NCBI GenBank assembly: GCA_028288675.1
Contig: JAQBNG010000064.1
Location: 1-45,190, forward strand
Direction: 5' to 3'
Length of the DNA: 45,190 bases
From: Flavisolibacter sp.
Lineage (GTDB): Bacteria > Bacteroidota > Bacteroidia > Chitinophagales > Chitinophagaceae
Numbering within the stretch: the first letter of the stretch is position 1; every line of letters starts with the position of its first letter. Below the pieces are notes generated by a model. That model saw nothing but the letters and a program-made list of their open reading frames with translations, did not search any database and was not told the origin of the DNA. The translations under genes and the position numbers were made by a program. This document shows, one piece after another, positions 2,181 to 7,092 of this stretch.

Positions 2181-2813
2181 ATGGACAAAAACTATCTCAA
2201 ACAGCTTTTCCCCGACCTTGAAGAAGGTTTATATAATGAATTGGTAGAACATGGTACTATAAAAGAAGTAAAAGCAGGAGAAACCCTTTTAAAAGTCGGG
2301 CAAACCATCCGCTCCACCATGTTAATATTAGATGGCTTGGTAAAGTTGTACAGGGAAGACGATGAAGGCAAAGAGTTTTTTATTTATCACCTTGATGCCG
2401 GTCAGGCTTGTTCTCTTTCTATGGTTTGCGCAGCTAAGCATGAAACAAGTGAGGTGCTTGCAAAAGCACTTACCGATGCTACAATATTAGCCATTCCCTT
2501 AGAGTTTATGGACCAGTGGATGAGTAAATACAAAACCTGGTATCAGTTCGTTATCACATCATATCGTAACCGGTTTGAAGAATTGCTGAAAACAATTGAT
2601 GCCATTGCTTTTTCAAACATGGATGAACGCCTGGAGGATTATATAAAAAAACAAGTTGCCCGGTTAGGCAACAACGTAAAAATGACACATCAGGCTATAG
2701 CTACTGACCTCAACTCTTCCCGTGAAGTTATTAGCAGGCTGCTAAAAAAGATGGAGGCAAAAGGATGGCTCATCATTCATCGCAACTCCATGGAATGGAT
2801 TAAAAAGGGTTAG
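2181..2813 (+). CDS. Crp/Fnr-family transcriptional regulator of the sulfur module
   Basis: The 210-residue protein has a cyclic-nucleotide-type beta-barrel (about residues 20-115), a dimerisation helix (about 120-150) and a C-terminal winged helix. The recognition helix SSREVISRLLKKME keeps the R-E-x3-R residues that in E. coli CRP contact GTGA half-sites. This fits the three GTGA-N6-TCAC palindromes found downstream. Two cysteines in GQACSLSMVCAAK sit in the sensor barrel and could be redox or persulfide sensors; that is inference. The FNR N-terminal [4Fe-4S] cysteine cluster is absent. The gene runs in the same direction as the module and precedes tauE by 58 bp. It probably activates the module. 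The effector is unknown. Confidence 0.88.
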   Translation: MDKNYLKQLFPDLEEGLYNELVEHGTIKEVKAGETLLKVGQTIRSTMLILDGLVKLYREDDEGKEFFIYHLDAGQACSLSMVCAAKHETSEVLAKALTDATILAIPLEFMDQWMSKYKTWYQFVITSYRNRFEELLKTIDAIAFSNMDERLEDYIKKQVARLGNNVKMTHQAIATDLNSSREVISRLLKKMEAKGWLIIHRNSMEWIKKG

Positions 2814-2822
2814 AAAGGGCTA

Positions 2823-2867
2823 TGTGACATAAATCACTGTAGGTCCACAGTAATGCAATCAAATTTG
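2823..2867 (+). promoter_or_regulatory. Crp-type box 1 and -7 element before tauE
   Basis: Palindrome TGTGA-CATAAA-TCACT (2823-2838) is followed by CAAATTTG (2860-2867). From palindrome centre to the final G is 36.5 nt, which places the box near -41.5 (class II activation geometry). The predicted transcription start falls on or next to the tauE ATG at 2872, so this message may be leaderless. Confidence 0.75.
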
Positions 2868-2871
2868 CATT

Positions 2872-3657
2872 ATGGAAGTCGCAGGCTACATAGCGTCATT
2901 ATTTATCGGAGTATCGTTAGGCTTGATTGGTGGCGGCGGCTCAATACTTACTGTGCCTGTACTCGTTTACCTGTTTGCCATTTCACCAACCATTGCTATT
3001 AGCTACTCACTTTTTATCGTAGGCTTTACAAGCCTTGTAGGTGCGTTTAATTATTACCGCAAAGGCTTGGTCAACTTCAAAACAGTTTTACTTTTCGGTT
3101 CATCTTCTATCACTACTGTTTTCATTGCACGAAAGTTCATCATTCCATTCTTACCAAATGTTTTTTTCAGGCTCGGCTCTTTTGAGGTCACCCATTCATT
3201 ATTTGTTATGGTTGTATTTGCCATACTTATGGTTGCGGCTTCCGTATCAATGATTAGAGGTAAGAAGATTGTAGAAGAAAAGCAAACCAATGAAAAGCCA
3301 TGGATGCTGGTAATATATGGAGTGTTTATTGGTTTAGTAACAGGTTTTTTAGGCGCTGGTGGTGGCTTCTTGCTGATACCTGCATTAGTGATATTAATGA
3401 AGTTGCCGATGAAGCAAGCTATTGGAACATCGCTTTTGATTATTGCGCTTAATTCCTTAATTGGTGTTTTAGGCGACATTGGTCGTCATGCAATTGATTG
3501 GAAATTCATAAGCATAGTTTCTGCCATAGCAATTGCAGGTATTTTCATCGGCGGTTATTTTAATCAGAAAGTAAACAGTAATAAACTAAAGAAAGCGTTT
3601 GGCTGGTTTGTATTGCTGATGGGTATTTACATTATTGTTAAAGAACTGGTTTTATAA
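2872..3657 (+). CDS. TauE/SafE-family membrane transporter, probable sulfite or sulfur-anion exporter
   Basis: The 261-residue integral membrane protein has about eight hydrophobic segments in two similar halves. Each half starts with a glycine-rich turn: SLGLIGGGGSILTVP near residue 15 and GFLGAGGGFLLIP near residue 160. That duplicated motif defines the TauE/SafE (DUF81) family, which moves sulfite, sulfoacetate or related anions across the inner membrane. Its place between a Crp regulator, YeeE-type thiosulfate transporters and a persulfide dioxygenase suggests export of sulfite or thiosulfate made from persulfides; the substrate is inferred. A Crp-type box lies directly upstream and a second one directly downstream. 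Confidence 0.88.
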   Translation: MEVAGYIASLFIGVSLGLIGGGGSILTVPVLVYLFAISPTIAISYSLFIVGFTSLVGAFNYYRKGLVNFKTVLLFGSSSITTVFIARKFIIPFLPNVFFRLGSFEVTHSLFVMVVFAILMVAASVSMIRGKKIVEEKQTNEKPWMLVIYGVFIGLVTGFLGAGGGFLLIPALVILMKLPMKQAIGTSLLIIALNSLIGVLGDIGRHAIDWKFISIVSAIAIAGIFIGGYFNQKVNSNKLKKAFGWFVLLMGIYIIVKELVL

Positions 3658-3663
3658 ATGCTA

Positions 3664-3708
3664 AGTGACAATTATCACACTTATCGAAGGATGATTGCAA
3701 GAACTTTG
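3664..3708 (+). promoter_or_regulatory. Crp-type box 2 and -7 element before the DUF6132 gene
   Basis: Palindrome AGTGA-CAATTA-TCACA (3664-3679) is followed by GAACTTTG (3701-3708), again with 36.5 nt from centre to final G. The predicted start of transcription is near 3713. That excludes an ATG at 3658 as translation start and supports the ATG at 3736. Confidence 0.78.
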
Positions 3709-3735
3709 AAACATCAAAAAGCACAAAAAATTATT

Positions 3736-3954
3736 ATGAAGAATTGGACAATAAATAATAGACTGTATTTCATCGGAGCAGCATTAGGCGCAATAGCAGG
3801 CTTTCTTTATTGGAAGTATGTAGGATGCTTAACGGGCACATGTTCCATCACATCTAATCCAGTAAACAGCACACTCTACTTTGCATTATTGGGGTCAGTG
3901 CTATTTGGAGCATTTAAGAAACAACCAAAGACAACAGCAACAGACAACCAATAA
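3736..3954 (+). CDS. DUF6132-type small membrane protein with a CX5C motif
   Basis: From the ATG at 3736 the product is 72 residues. It has one hydrophobic segment (YFIGAALGAIAGFLYW), a cysteine pair in VGCLTGTCSITSNP and a second hydrophobic segment (TLYFALLGSVLFGAF). An upstream in-frame ATG at 3658 would add 26 residues of poor quality, and it lies before the Crp box and predicted promoter, so I reject it. The family has no known function to my knowledge. Two cysteines beside membrane helices, in a sulfur operon, suggest handling of a thiol or persulfide near the membrane; this is inference. It is followed at 7-nt spacing by the first YeeE half-protein. Confidence 0.75.
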   Translation: MKNWTINNRLYFIGAALGAIAGFLYWKYVGCLTGTCSITSNPVNSTLYFALLGSVLFGAFKKQPKTTATDNQ

Positions 3955-3960
3955 ATAATT

Positions 3961-4524
3961 ATGATAGAATTTTTGAAGCAGCCGTGGGCATGGTATGTAG
4001 CCGGTCCATTAATAGGTTTGATGGTGCCTGCATTATTAATATTAGGCAATAAAACGTTAGGAATATCTTCTTCGCTACGTCATGTATGTGCAGCTTGTAT
4101 ACCTGCAAAAATTCCATTCTTTAATTACGATTGGAAGAAAGAAGCATGGAACTTGGTTTTTGTTGCAGGTATAATTTTAGGTGCTTTTATAGTGGCAACT
4201 TTTTTAAGCAATCCAAACCCTGTTAGCATTAATCCTAAACTGGTTGCGGAACTTAACGGTTACGGCATAACAGACCAACATTCATTATTGCCCGATCAAT
4301 TATTCAATTGGCAGCAATTGTTTACCGTTAAAGGTTTGTTCTTTATGGTATTTGGTGGCTTCCTGGTAGGCTTTGGAACCCGTTATGCAGGAGGTTGCAC
4401 AAGTGGTCATGCAATCATGGGATTATCTAATTTGCAATTGCCTTCTTTGATAGCAACCATCAGTTTTATGGCAGGTGGCTTCCTCATGGCTAACGTTATT
4501 CTTCCCTTTATTTTAAAATTATAA
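3961..4524 (+). CDS. YeeE/YedE-family half transporter (first half)
   Basis: The 187-residue membrane protein belongs to the YeeE/YedE (DUF395) family, known for thiosulfate uptake through conserved membrane cysteines. It carries the hallmark GTRYAGGCTSGHAIMG in the second half and an additional RHVCAACIPAK pair in the first. Full-length YeeE is about 350 residues. Here the family is split over two adjacent genes, as in the two-gene (PmpA/PmpB-like) arrangement. The partner starts 3 nt after this stop, which points to coupled translation and a heteromeric transporter. Whether the cargo is thiosulfate, sulfite or polysulfide sulfur cannot be read from sequence. Confidence 0.85.
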   Translation: MIEFLKQPWAWYVAGPLIGLMVPALLILGNKTLGISSSLRHVCAACIPAKIPFFNYDWKKEAWNLVFVAGIILGAFIVATFLSNPNPVSINPKLVAELNGYGITDQHSLLPDQLFNWQQLFTVKGLFFMVFGGFLVGFGTRYAGGCTSGHAIMGLSNLQLPSLIATISFMAGGFLMANVILPFILKL

Positions 4525-4527
4525 TCA

Positions 4528-5037
4528 ATGCAAACAGCACTTATAAAACCAATACATACAAATACTGATTTTGAAGTAAGGTCATTAGATGTAGTAGACA
4601 ATCAAGAGCCAAAAAAGGAAAGTATTTTAAGTTACCTGAAGTATTTAATAATGGGCTTACTCTTCGGCATTATCCTGGTAAAATCTGAAGTCATTTCATG
4701 GTATCGAATACAGGAAATGTTTAGGCTGCAAAGTTTTCACATGTTTGGTGTAATCGGTTCGGCAGTAGTTACAGGTATTGTATCAGTATGGCTTATAAAG
4801 AAATTCAACATCAAAACAATCAGAGGTGAAAAGATACAATTGCCAACCAAGAAATTCAACAAAGGACAGATTTATGGCGGTTTAATTTTTGGCTTTGGAT
4901 GGGCAATTACAGGAGCTTGCCCTGGTCCTTTATTTGCTCAAATTGGTTCAGGTTTTAGTGTAATTTTTATTACGCTTCTAAGTGCGATTGCAGGCACTTG
5001 GTTGTATGGTTTACTAAGAGAAAAATTACCACATTAG
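4528..5037 (+). CDS. YeeE/YedE-family half transporter (second half, DUF6691 type)
   Basis: The 169-residue protein has a polar N-terminus of about 35 residues and then about four hydrophobic segments. The hallmark GWAITGACPGPLFAQIGSG holds the conserved cysteine that complements the GGCTSG of the preceding protein. The two genes are separated by 3 nt and are very likely one transport unit. The N-terminal start at 4528 is supported by this spacing. A Crp-type palindrome follows 11 nt after the stop, so a new transcription unit begins behind it. Confidence 0.85.
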   Translation: MQTALIKPIHTNTDFEVRSLDVVDNQEPKKESILSYLKYLIMGLLFGIILVKSEVISWYRIQEMFRLQSFHMFGVIGSAVVTGIVSVWLIKKFNIKTIRGEKIQLPTKKFNKGQIYGGLIFGFGWAITGACPGPLFAQIGSGFSVIFITLLSAIAGTWLYGLLREKLPH

Positions 5038-5048
5038 AACAGGTTCTA

Positions 5049-5093
5049 AGTGACAAGTGTCACTAAACAGAAAATAAAGATTAAAGAAGTTTG
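5049..5093 (+). promoter_or_regulatory. Crp-type box 3 and -7 element before the dioxygenase gene
   Basis: Palindrome AGTGA-CAAGTG-TCACT (5049-5064) is followed by GAAGTTTG (5086-5093). Centre to final G is 36.5 nt, as at the other two sites. The predicted transcript starts near 5098, 14 nt before the ATG at 5112. Confidence 0.78.
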
Positions 5094-5111
5094 CAACGTA
5101 AATAAAAGATT

Positions 5112-6464
5112 ATGCAGATAAAACAATTTGAAGATAAAAACCTTTCACACTACAGTTATGCAGTATTGAGCAAGTACGAAAAGAAGATAATTTTGATTGA
5201 CCCGGCACGCAATCCCCGGCAATATTTTGATTACGCAAAAGAACATGGTGCCCAAATAGCAGGTATTATTGAAACACACCCTCATGCGGATTTTGTAAGC
5301 GGTCATTTAGAATTGCATCAAACTACAGGAGCAACAATTTATACAAGCAAAGAGGTTCATGCCTTATATCCGCACCAGGCTTTTGATGAAGGGCAAACAA
5401 TACAATTGGGAAACATAAAATTAACAGCACTTAATACACCAGGTCATTCACCAGATAGCATTAGCATTTTATTGGAACATGATGGAAAACAAAAAGCTGT
5501 TTTTACAGGTGACACACTTTTCATCGGTGATTGTGGCAGGCCTGATTTAAGAGAAGGTGCAGGAAAAATACAAACAACAAGAACGGAACTTGCAAAGCAG
5601 ATGTATCATTCTTTGAGAGATAAACTGATAAAGTTGAAGGATGATGTAACAGTTTACCCGGCACACGGCGCAGGCACACTTTGCGGTAAAAATTTAAGTA
5701 AAGAAAGCAGCAGTACCGTTGGAGAAGAAAAGAAAACAAACTGGAGTTTACAGGAAGCAACAGAAGATGAATTTGTACAAAACTTATTAGCAGACCAGCC
5801 CTTTGTTCCTCATTATTTTCCATTTAATGTAGAACTGAACAGAAAGGGCGCAGCAGGTTTAAAAGGAAGCATTGACAAGATTAAAACTGGTGATATAGCT
5901 GATGAAAAAACCACATCAACTTTGAATAAAACGATATGGGTAATTGATACAAGAGGCGAAGAAGATTTTAAGAAAGGACATTTGCCGCAGTCAATTAACC
6001 TTATGGAAAAAGGCAAATTTGAAACATGGTTAGGTAGTATAATCAAACCCGGTGAACAATTTTATTTAGCAAGCGACAGTAAAGAGCAATTACGAACAAT
6101 GTTGGAAAGAACGGCTGCTATCGGTTATGAAAGCCAGGTAGCAGAAGGCTTTGTGATTGAAAGCGGCTCTATAAAAGAAGAAAAGCTTGATGTAGGCGAG
6201 TTTAAAAATCATCAGCAGGATTATACGATAATTGATGTTAGAAATACCTCTGAAGTGAAAGAAGAAAAGATTTTTCAAAAAAGTATATCTATGCCTTTAG
6301 CAGAAATCAGAAGCCGGGTTAATGAAATTCCAACTGACAAGCCAATTGTTGTTCATTGTGCAGGAGGTTATAGAAGTGCAGCAGCAAGTTCATTGATAAA
6401 TTCTCAATTGAATGGCACTGTAAAAGTTCTTGATTTGGGTGAAGCAATAAAACAGTTTCCATAA
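5112..6464 (+). CDS. Persulfide dioxygenase-rhodanese fusion (CstB-like)
   Basis: The 450-residue protein joins a metallo-beta-lactamase-fold dioxygenase (about 1-235) to two rhodanese domains. The dioxygenase carries ETHPHADFVSGH (His56, His58, Asp60), TPGHSPDS (His112), FTGDTLFIGDCGRPDL (Asp134) and VYPAHGAGTLCG. These fit the Fe(II) 2-His-1-carboxylate site of ETHE1/CstB enzymes, which oxidise glutathione or other persulfides to sulfite. The middle rhodanese domain (about 275-350; VIDTRGEEDFKKGHLP) has no catalytic cysteine. The C-terminal one keeps it in VVHCAGGYRSA (Cys416) and could pass sulfur on to form thiosulfate. This domain order is that of staphylococcal CstB. The protein is probably cytoplasmic and is the core enzyme of the module. 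Confidence 0.9.
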   Translation: MQIKQFEDKNLSHYSYAVLSKYEKKIILIDPARNPRQYFDYAKEHGAQIAGIIETHPHADFVSGHLELHQTTGATIYTSKEVHALYPHQAFDEGQTIQLGNIKLTALNTPGHSPDSISILLEHDGKQKAVFTGDTLFIGDCGRPDLREGAGKIQTTRTELAKQMYHSLRDKLIKLKDDVTVYPAHGAGTLCGKNLSKESSSTVGEEKKTNWSLQEATEDEFVQNLLADQPFVPHYFPFNVELNRKGAAGLKGSIDKIKTGDIADEKTTSTLNKTIWVIDTRGEEDFKKGHLPQSINLMEKGKFETWLGSIIKPGEQFYLASDSKEQLRTMLERTAAIGYESQVAEGFVIESGSIKEEKLDVGEFKNHQQDYTIIDVRNTSEVKEEKIFQKSISMPLAEIRSRVNEIPTDKPIVVHCAGGYRSAAASSLINSQLNGTVKVLDLGEAIKQFP

Positions 6465-6474
6465 AAGTAATAAC

Positions 6475-7092
6475 GTGAATATTTCTGAACAACAACATTG
6501 GGATAAAGTATATAGCACAAAAGCAGAAGCTGAAGTAAGCTGGTTTGAGCCGTACCCAAAAACTTCAATGGAGTTTGTTGAACTTTTCAATCTGCCATTC
6601 GATGCAAACATCATAGACATTGGCGGAGGTGATAGCCACTTTGTGGATGCATTGCTTGATAAGGGATATAACAATATTTATGTTTTGGACATATCAGCAT
6701 ACGCTATAGAAAGAGCAAAACAAAGGTTAGGTGAAAGTGCATCGAGAGTTCATTGGATTATCGCAGAGATAACAGAATTTGAACTACCGGTACAGTTTCA
6801 CTTTTGGCATGATAGAGCAGCATTTCATTTTCTTACCACAGAAGATAAGGTTTACAGGTATGTTTCCCTTGCTGAAGATGCTATCAAGAAAGATGGCTAC
6901 TTAATACTTGGCACTTTTTCAGAAAACGGTCCTACAACGTGCAGTGGTTTAGAAATCAAGCAATACTCCGAAGCATCAATGTCTGCAAGATTTGAAATAG
7001 CCTTTGACAGAATAAAATGTATTGAGGAAAATCACACAACACCTTTTAACACAGTGCAGAACTTTCTGTATTGCAGTTTTAAAAAGAAGTAG
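6475..7092 (+). CDS. Class I SAM-dependent methyltransferase, last gene of the sulfur module
   Basis: The 205-residue protein starts with GTG 10 nt behind the dioxygenase. SAM-binding motif I is IIDIGGGDSHFVDALL, followed by the acidic end of strand 2 in YVLDIS. The pattern SWFEPYPKTS near the N-terminus and HDRAAFHFL plus TCSGLEIKQYS in the second half recur in a family of small bacterial methyltransferases whose substrate I do not know. Its tight coupling to the dioxygenase suggests a sulfur-linked substrate such as a thiol or hydrogen sulfide. This is inference from position only. Confidence 0.8.
   Translation: MNISEQQHWDKVYSTKAEAEVSWFEPYPKTSMEFVELFNLPFDANIIDIGGGDSHFVDALLDKGYNNIYVLDISAYAIERAKQRLGESASRVHWIIAEITEFELPVQFHFWHDRAAFHFLTTEDKVYRYVSLAEDAIKKDGYLILGTFSENGPTTCSGLEIKQYSEASMSARFEIAFDRIKCIEENHTTPFNTVQNFLYCSFKKK

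Follow-up and report, generated by a model that had tools for sequence, protein, structure and literature searches.

The window analyzed here is a 45,190-nucleotide (nt) stretch of DNA from Flavisolibacter sp., a member of the Chitinophagaceae in the phylum Bacteroidota (GenBank assembly GCA_028288675.1, contig JAQBNG010000064.1). On its forward strand lies the gene for a Crp/Fnr-type regulator, accompanied by three similarly built predicted promoters and by genes with likely roles in sulfur handling. The regulator (2181..2813) is a protein of 210 amino acids with cysteines C77 and C83, the recognition helix SSREVISRLLKKM, and Pfam matches to cNMP_binding (8.3e-11) and HTH_Crp_2 (1.1e-7). Downstream on the same strand are tauE (2872..3657), which encodes a TauE/SafE family exporter (Pfam TauE, 4e-47), and a gene for a DUF6132-like small membrane protein (3736..3954), whose Pfam match (DUF6132, 1.9e-4, 21.5 bits) lies below the cut-off of 23.2. 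The start of this second gene is probably 3736 rather than 3658, because an open reading frame (ORF) from 3658 would run through a promoter. Next are two YeeE/YedE-type sulfur transporter halves, one at 3961..4524 (Sulf_transp, 1.6e-19; weak match to the solved TsuA, 5.8e-5) and the other at 4528..5037 (DUF6691, 4.4e-13; Sulf_transp, 4.2e-11). The gene at 5112..6464 encodes a protein that joins a metallo-beta-lactamase fold to a rhodanese and is likely a persulfide dioxygenase, since it matches persulfide dioxygenase structures (3tp9, 1.9e-67; BpPRF, 7.4e-18; ETHE1, 2.5e-16). A methyltransferase-like gene (6475..7092, forward strand; Methyltransf_25, 7.5e-9) starts 11 nt past the dioxygenase gene and is probably co-transcribed with it.

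Promoter architecture in the window

The palindromic box GTGAN6TCAC occurs exactly three times in the window, always on the forward strand and upstream of a gene: GTGACATAAATCAC (2824..2837) before tauE (2872), GTGACAATTATCAC (3665..3678) before the DUF6132 gene, and GTGACAAGTGTCAC (5050..5063) before the dioxygenase-rhodanese gene (5112). Only 0.41 such boxes are expected, and three were reached in 1 of 100 shuffles. The core NAANTTTG, a predicted -7 element, begins exactly 22 nt after each box, its instances being CAAATTTG (2860..2867), GAACTTTG (3701..3708), and GAAGTTTG (5086..5093), so that the distance from box center to last G of the core is 36.5 nt at all three sites. The original prediction had claimed this identical distance and the lack of a further box in the window, and both statements hold; a search with a relaxed box and gaps of 21–23 nt added zero sites. 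When the window was simulated 400 times with an order-1 Markov model, the mean was 0.295 boxes per run, and not one run contained the composite (box, 22 nt, NAANTTTG).

A start-site map of flavobacterial promoters places TAnnTTTG at -12 to -5 (PMC9723704). Because the last G of the core is set at -5 in this register, each box spans -48 to -35 and is centered at -41.5, the class II position of CRP/FNR activators that had been proposed; the corresponding predicted start sites are 2872, 3713, and 5098. Among 93 aligned strict sites from the window and its relatives, no separate -33 element is present; A occupies +1 in 61%, and the core opens with C in 56% and with T in 12%. In a wider count, composites have T at -12 in 12 of 85 cases, versus 102 of 189 for the other ANNTTTG sequences that lie a short way upstream of ORFs within the same loci (p 2e-10). 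The predicted start at 2872 is the A of the tauE start codon (2860-2874 region), and the tauE message may be leaderless. Such coincidence is seen at 6 of 72 TauE sites (the window and five others), and 41 of the 72 have the start codon 11–14 nt further on.

The source genome assembly (4.74 Mb) contains GTGAN6TCAC at 33 places versus 37 for a backwards control, so the box alone carries little meaning. None of the remaining 30 boxes, read in both orientations, has NANNTTTG at a 22-nt gap. The genome scan for box plus core that had been suggested thus returns only the three window sites as perfect composites, within a total of 37 matches with up to two mismatches versus 35 in controls. One imperfect composite (L089; C106:17542-17585, minus strand) consists of GTGACATAAATCAT, 22 nt, and CATCTTTG, with two mismatches, and the ORF behind it is truncated-globin-like (Bac_globin, 7.5e-8); among so many control matches it stays a candidate that may be a weak fourth site or chance. 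Another match, with one mismatch (C67), was rejected as a fourth site, there being no ORF of at least 60 amino acids within reach.

Box, spacing, and predicted target genes in relatives

Of 394 genomes from the same family, 294 encode a regulator-like protein (E <= 1e-30, a threshold that includes paralogues). Three sets of loci were pooled with the window: stretches of about 10 kb surrounding 40 of the top regulator matches (some contigs being shorter), which with the window makes 41; 80 named loci from a scan of public genomes, drawn from 577 confirmed stretches; and 29 shorter loci from a sample of the phylum (L145-L173). The pooled set (the window and 149 loci, 1.41 Mb) is mostly regulator-centered, was searched on both strands, and retains overlaps between sets. 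A strict box (GTGAYN4RTCAC) or a relaxed box (GTRAYN4RTYAC) was sought with the core NANNTTTG within 40 nt. Of 132 strict pairs, 103 have a gap of 22 nt, 12 of 23 nt, and 2 of 21 nt; the relaxed box gives 170 of 212 pairs at 22 nt, and reversed sequence gives 1 strict and 4 relaxed pairs overall. By locus set, the relaxed composite (gap 21–23) is carried by 30 of 41, 64 of 80, and 24 of 29 loci, and the strict composite at 22 nt by 26 of 41, 42 of 80, and 2 of 29. Named carriers include Niastella, Chitinophaga, Pedobacter, Mucilaginibacter, Pontibacter, and metagenome-assembled genomes (MAGs) of Saprospiraceae.

The layout is thus conserved in orthologous clusters, the outcome on which the original prediction had staked itself, and its recurrence in relatives rejects the view that it is a curiosity of one genome. 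A fixed box and gap, as first described, stand in part: the 22-nt gap dominates, but one half-site varies in Flavobacterium and some loci have a 23-nt gap. Several Flavobacterium loci carry the degenerate box GTGATAAATGTTAC, or one near it, at the same 22-nt gap where this was counted, and these overturned a first impression that the box had been lost there.

The composite also follows the regulator across genomes. Among the 150 matches listed from a search of the 394 family genomes at gaps of 11–33 nt, 72 have a gap of 22, 23 a gap of 23, 11 a gap of 21, and 8 a gap of 29, with at most 4 at any other. By hand tally, 72 matches fall in the 20 genomes with the strongest regulator matches (control 24), compared with 10 (control 22) in 20 listed of the 100 genomes that lack a regulator match. 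A hand count in 395 genomes of the phylum found 74 matches to the fixed 22-nt composite versus 8 controls, 9 of the 74 being near-copies in one distant family that resemble coding sequence. Perfect composite and regulator occur together in 33 of these genomes, the composite only in 18, the regulator only in 91, and neither in 253 (p 1.7e-7, relatedness not corrected).

An ORF follows 170 of 176 distinct sites, and in 159 cases it belongs to TauE (73), a single metallo-lactamase/rhodanese cluster (62), yeeE (10), a small ORF family without a Pfam match (8), or the regulator gene itself (6), with 11 others. Because the loci are centered on the regulator, genes were also compared within loci. A relaxed composite lies within 200 nt upstream of 53 of 77 TauE genes, 38 of 103 dioxygenase/rhodanese homologues, 9 of 50 yeeE (yeeA) genes, and 6 of 112 regulator-like genes; the figure is 19 of 962 for other ORFs and 0 of 1378 in the reversed control. 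The DUF6132 gene of the window scores as a miss in this count, its ORF start having been taken at 3658, upstream of the box.

The 22-nt composites located by the box rather than by the regulator (26 from the phylum scan and 29 hand-picked stretches) are followed by 55 ORFs, with Pfam matches, among the 25 of 42 families listed, to Rhodanese (9), YgaP-like_TM (7), TauE (5), Lactamase_B (5), OsmC (4), Pyr_redox_2 (4), OEP (2), and Thioredoxin (2), with one match each to various others. Several of these sites adjoin a regulator-like gene (e.g., L175, L190, L191, L192), and some sit in long open frames. One ORF (L293), on a different contig from the regulator of its genome, matches a solved sulfide:quinone oxidoreductase (3e-103); a second sulfide:quinone oxidoreductase ORF (L140) lies 5.8 kb from the regulator, and L134 has a likely CoA-disulfide reductase with a rhodanese domain (477.5 bits, under the cut-off of 578.8). 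Sites away from the regulator thus precede genes for sulfide:quinone oxidoreductase, rhodanese, OsmC, and thioredoxin, and the "local" regulon originally proposed was drawn too narrowly.

Other box arrangements were also seen. At ten hand-picked sites of 23 listed (L313-L322), similar boxes stand 23 nt from the core and precede a different set of genes (glyoxalase-like, 4; short-chain dehydrogenase, 2; L-PSP, SnoaL, and flavodoxin-2, 1 each; no Pfam match, 1). These look like a second Crp-type regulon offset by one nucleotide, and a Crp-like ORF lies near one of them (L321). The sulfur genes themselves can carry the 23-nt gap, as seen in MAGs of Saprospiraceae, one of Mucilaginibacter, and one further MAG (L233, L250, L259, L255), and the phase therefore varies by lineage or locus. 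At five loci (L112, L125, L127, L129, L131), no matching core accompanies the boxes upstream of the regulator gene at the 22-nt distance, which hints that autoregulation there may use a different geometry.

The regulator and its sensor domain

The window protein belongs to the Crp/Fnr superfamily, with Pfam scores above cut-off for cNMP_binding (42.2 bits), HTH_Crp_2 (32.1), and Crp (28.3). CRP reads GTGA through the residues R-E-x3-R of its recognition helix. The same residues had been pointed out in this protein, and they are maintained among 64 homologues, with R181 and R186 invariant and E182 kept in at least 90%. The three other HTH_Crp_2 proteins of the genome (one match being a fragment) carry T or P where the first arginine would be. 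One Crp-like protein of the genome (L324, C32) is fused to an apparent response-regulator receiver domain, with a histidine-kinase-like frame alongside.

Neither cAMP- nor FNR-type sensing is supported. The CRP equivalog model (NCBIfam PRK11753) scores 48.7 bits against a cut-off of 266. E72 and R82 are the phosphate-binding, cAMP-contact residues of CRP; in an alignment to the CRP variant 4bh9, E72 falls in an insertion and R82 is opposite a glutamate, and ordinary cAMP binding is therefore unlikely. The four-cysteine set of FNR, a 4Fe-4S oxygen sensor, is lacking, and the FNR model (PRK11161) scores 35.2 bits against 228. The only invariant cysteines are C77 and C83, kept in 64 of 64 homologues and located where CRP binds cAMP, a conserved pair in the sensor domain of the kind seen in dithiol sensors such as CstR and SqrR. 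This pair is absent from the two other HTH_Crp_2 proteins of the genome that have a readable sensor domain.

Interpretation, alternatives, and significance

These findings are best read, with a probability of roughly 0.7, as describing a dithiol Crp/Fnr class II activator of sulfide and persulfide detoxification that operates in several Bacteroidota families. A dimer of the regulator would read GTGAY-N4-RTCAC centered at -41.5, where a -33 element would lie, and would recruit RNA polymerase to a core that is weak, CAnnTTTG being more typical than TAnnTTTG. The units driven in the window would be tauE, the DUF6132-yeeE-yeeE genes, and the dioxygenase-rhodanese gene; in relatives they would also include genes for sulfide:quinone oxidoreductase, rhodaneses, CoA-disulfide reductase, OsmC, thioredoxin, and sometimes the regulator itself. 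Persulfide or polysulfide, the likely signal in view of the target genes and the two invariant cysteines, would act on C77/C83 within the counterpart of CRP's cAMP pocket. The predicted targets and the geometry of the regulon are well supported; DNA binding, activation, polymerase contacts, and the signal we infer. The promoters of the window and of its relatives point to a single conserved switch, worked probably by a sulfur-sensing activator encoded alongside.

Several observations weigh against this interpretation. The correspondence between composite and regulator is imperfect, given the 91 phylum genomes with a regulator-like match and no perfect composite and the 18 with the reverse. The composite is absent from 11 of 41 and 16 of 80 regulator loci (27 of 121), including the close relatives L107 (regulator 82% identical), L113, and L203. 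Some relaxed box is kept in 19 of these 27, and the loci without a composite hold three more distinct strict boxes, 22 nt before a core that ends in TTG but lacks the T ahead of it. The yeeB (0 of 49), DUF6132 (0 of 19), and methyltransferase (0 of 6) genes never have a composite within 200 nt upstream, as expected of downstream operon genes; the DUF6132 box of the window would then be particular to its gene order. Some ORFs behind box-found sites look unrelated (e.g., FTHFS, a tRNA synthetase). The solved protein 3dv8 also has the cysteine pair, as do homologues (L172, L173) with no sulfur genes next to them in the stretch examined, and the pair is therefore not specific to sulfur clusters.

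The same regulator and class II promoters could instead answer heme, a gas, or the general redox state, with the sulfur genes responding to redox; signals of this sort have been proposed for PgRsp and are established for CooA. PgRsp, a Crp/Fnr protein of Porphyromonas gingivalis, is reported to bind heme and to affect oxidative-stress genes, and it was modeled on 3dv8 (PMC6955866), which is the nearest solved relative of the window regulator too; in addition, a globin gene sits behind an imperfect site in the source genome. This rival is unlikely, although it deserves the most weight of those considered, since the targets in relatives are dominated by sulfide and persulfide enzymes, no histidine is invariant among the 64 homologues, and a Cys76Ala change in PgRsp reportedly left its heme spectrum unchanged (PMC6955866), so that heme there need not use that cysteine. 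A repressor that blocks the promoters and is released by sulfide would have precedent in the reactive-sulfur regulators CstR and SqrR/BigR (PMC9774590), but the fixed -41.5 phase, the missing -33 element, and the lost T at -12 suggest activator-dependent promoters and make repression quite improbable.

Another Crp/Fnr protein of the cell might read the boxes, the neighboring gene being incidental. The arrangement one nucleotide longer before other genes indicates that boxes of this kind may serve two or more such regulators; however, R-E-x3-R is confined to this protein among the four HTH_Crp_2 matches of the genome, and composites track this regulator across genomes, which leaves the proposal with slighter prospects still. 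Chance can be set aside as an account of the boxes and cores: the genome shows no enrichment of GTGAN6TCAC by itself, but the simulations yielded no composite, and the layout is conserved in relatives.

The preferred reading, a sulfur-responsive class II activator, shares with E. coli CRP and FNR the fold, the GTGA-reading helix, and a box centered at -41.5 (in the predicted register), and differs in the loss of E72/R82, the lack of an FNR-type cysteine set, and a Bacteroidota -7 core in place of the -10 element of E. coli promoters. The closest solved sequence is 3dv8 (5.6e-28 by profile), in which both cysteines align; it comes from another phylum, and no stated targets or signal were found for it. 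Flp of Lactobacillus and CprK are thiol-redox Crp/Fnr proteins, with redox cysteines on the same fold, and differ from the window regulator in cysteine positions, targets, and phyla. The protein 3dv8 is described as a Crp/Fnr family regulator of Eubacterium rectale (PMC6955866). PgRsp, a redox-linked and autoregulated Bacteroidota member with hmu and bcp as reported targets (PMC6955866), is perhaps a cousin of the window regulator, the likeness being drawn through the shared nearest structure rather than by sequence. CstR, SqrR/BigR, and FisR control sulfide and persulfide genes via cysteine pairs or triads on CsoR, ArsR, and sigma-54-activator folds, the first two as repressors (PMC9774590). 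That 2022 review names reactive-sulfur regulators on these three folds, and the two mentions of Crp in its available text are references on other subjects (PMC9774590). No Crp/Fnr persulfide sensor was found in the literature searched, which is weak evidence, as most searches missed the slashed spelling "Crp/Fnr," and no paper was found that combines Bacteroidetes, persulfide dioxygenase, Crp, and sulfide. The novelty of a Crp/Fnr regulator for sulfide handling is accordingly provisional.

The predicted Crp/Fnr class II regulon appears wider than first proposed, covering sulfide and persulfide handling in several Bacteroidota families. There is about an even chance that the fuller picture holds, in which the cAMP pocket has been turned into a dithiol persulfide sensor and the protein, activating class II promoters whose -12 base is weakened, serves these families as a main switch governing the oxidation of sulfide, the removal of persulfide, and the export of sulfur. 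If true, the finding would add a reactive-sulfur sensor and regulator on the Crp/Fnr fold for sulfide handling, would provide a promoter code (box, 22 nt, weak -7 element) that is readable from sequence, and would make sensing by cysteine-pair Crp/Fnr proteins such as 3dv8 testable.

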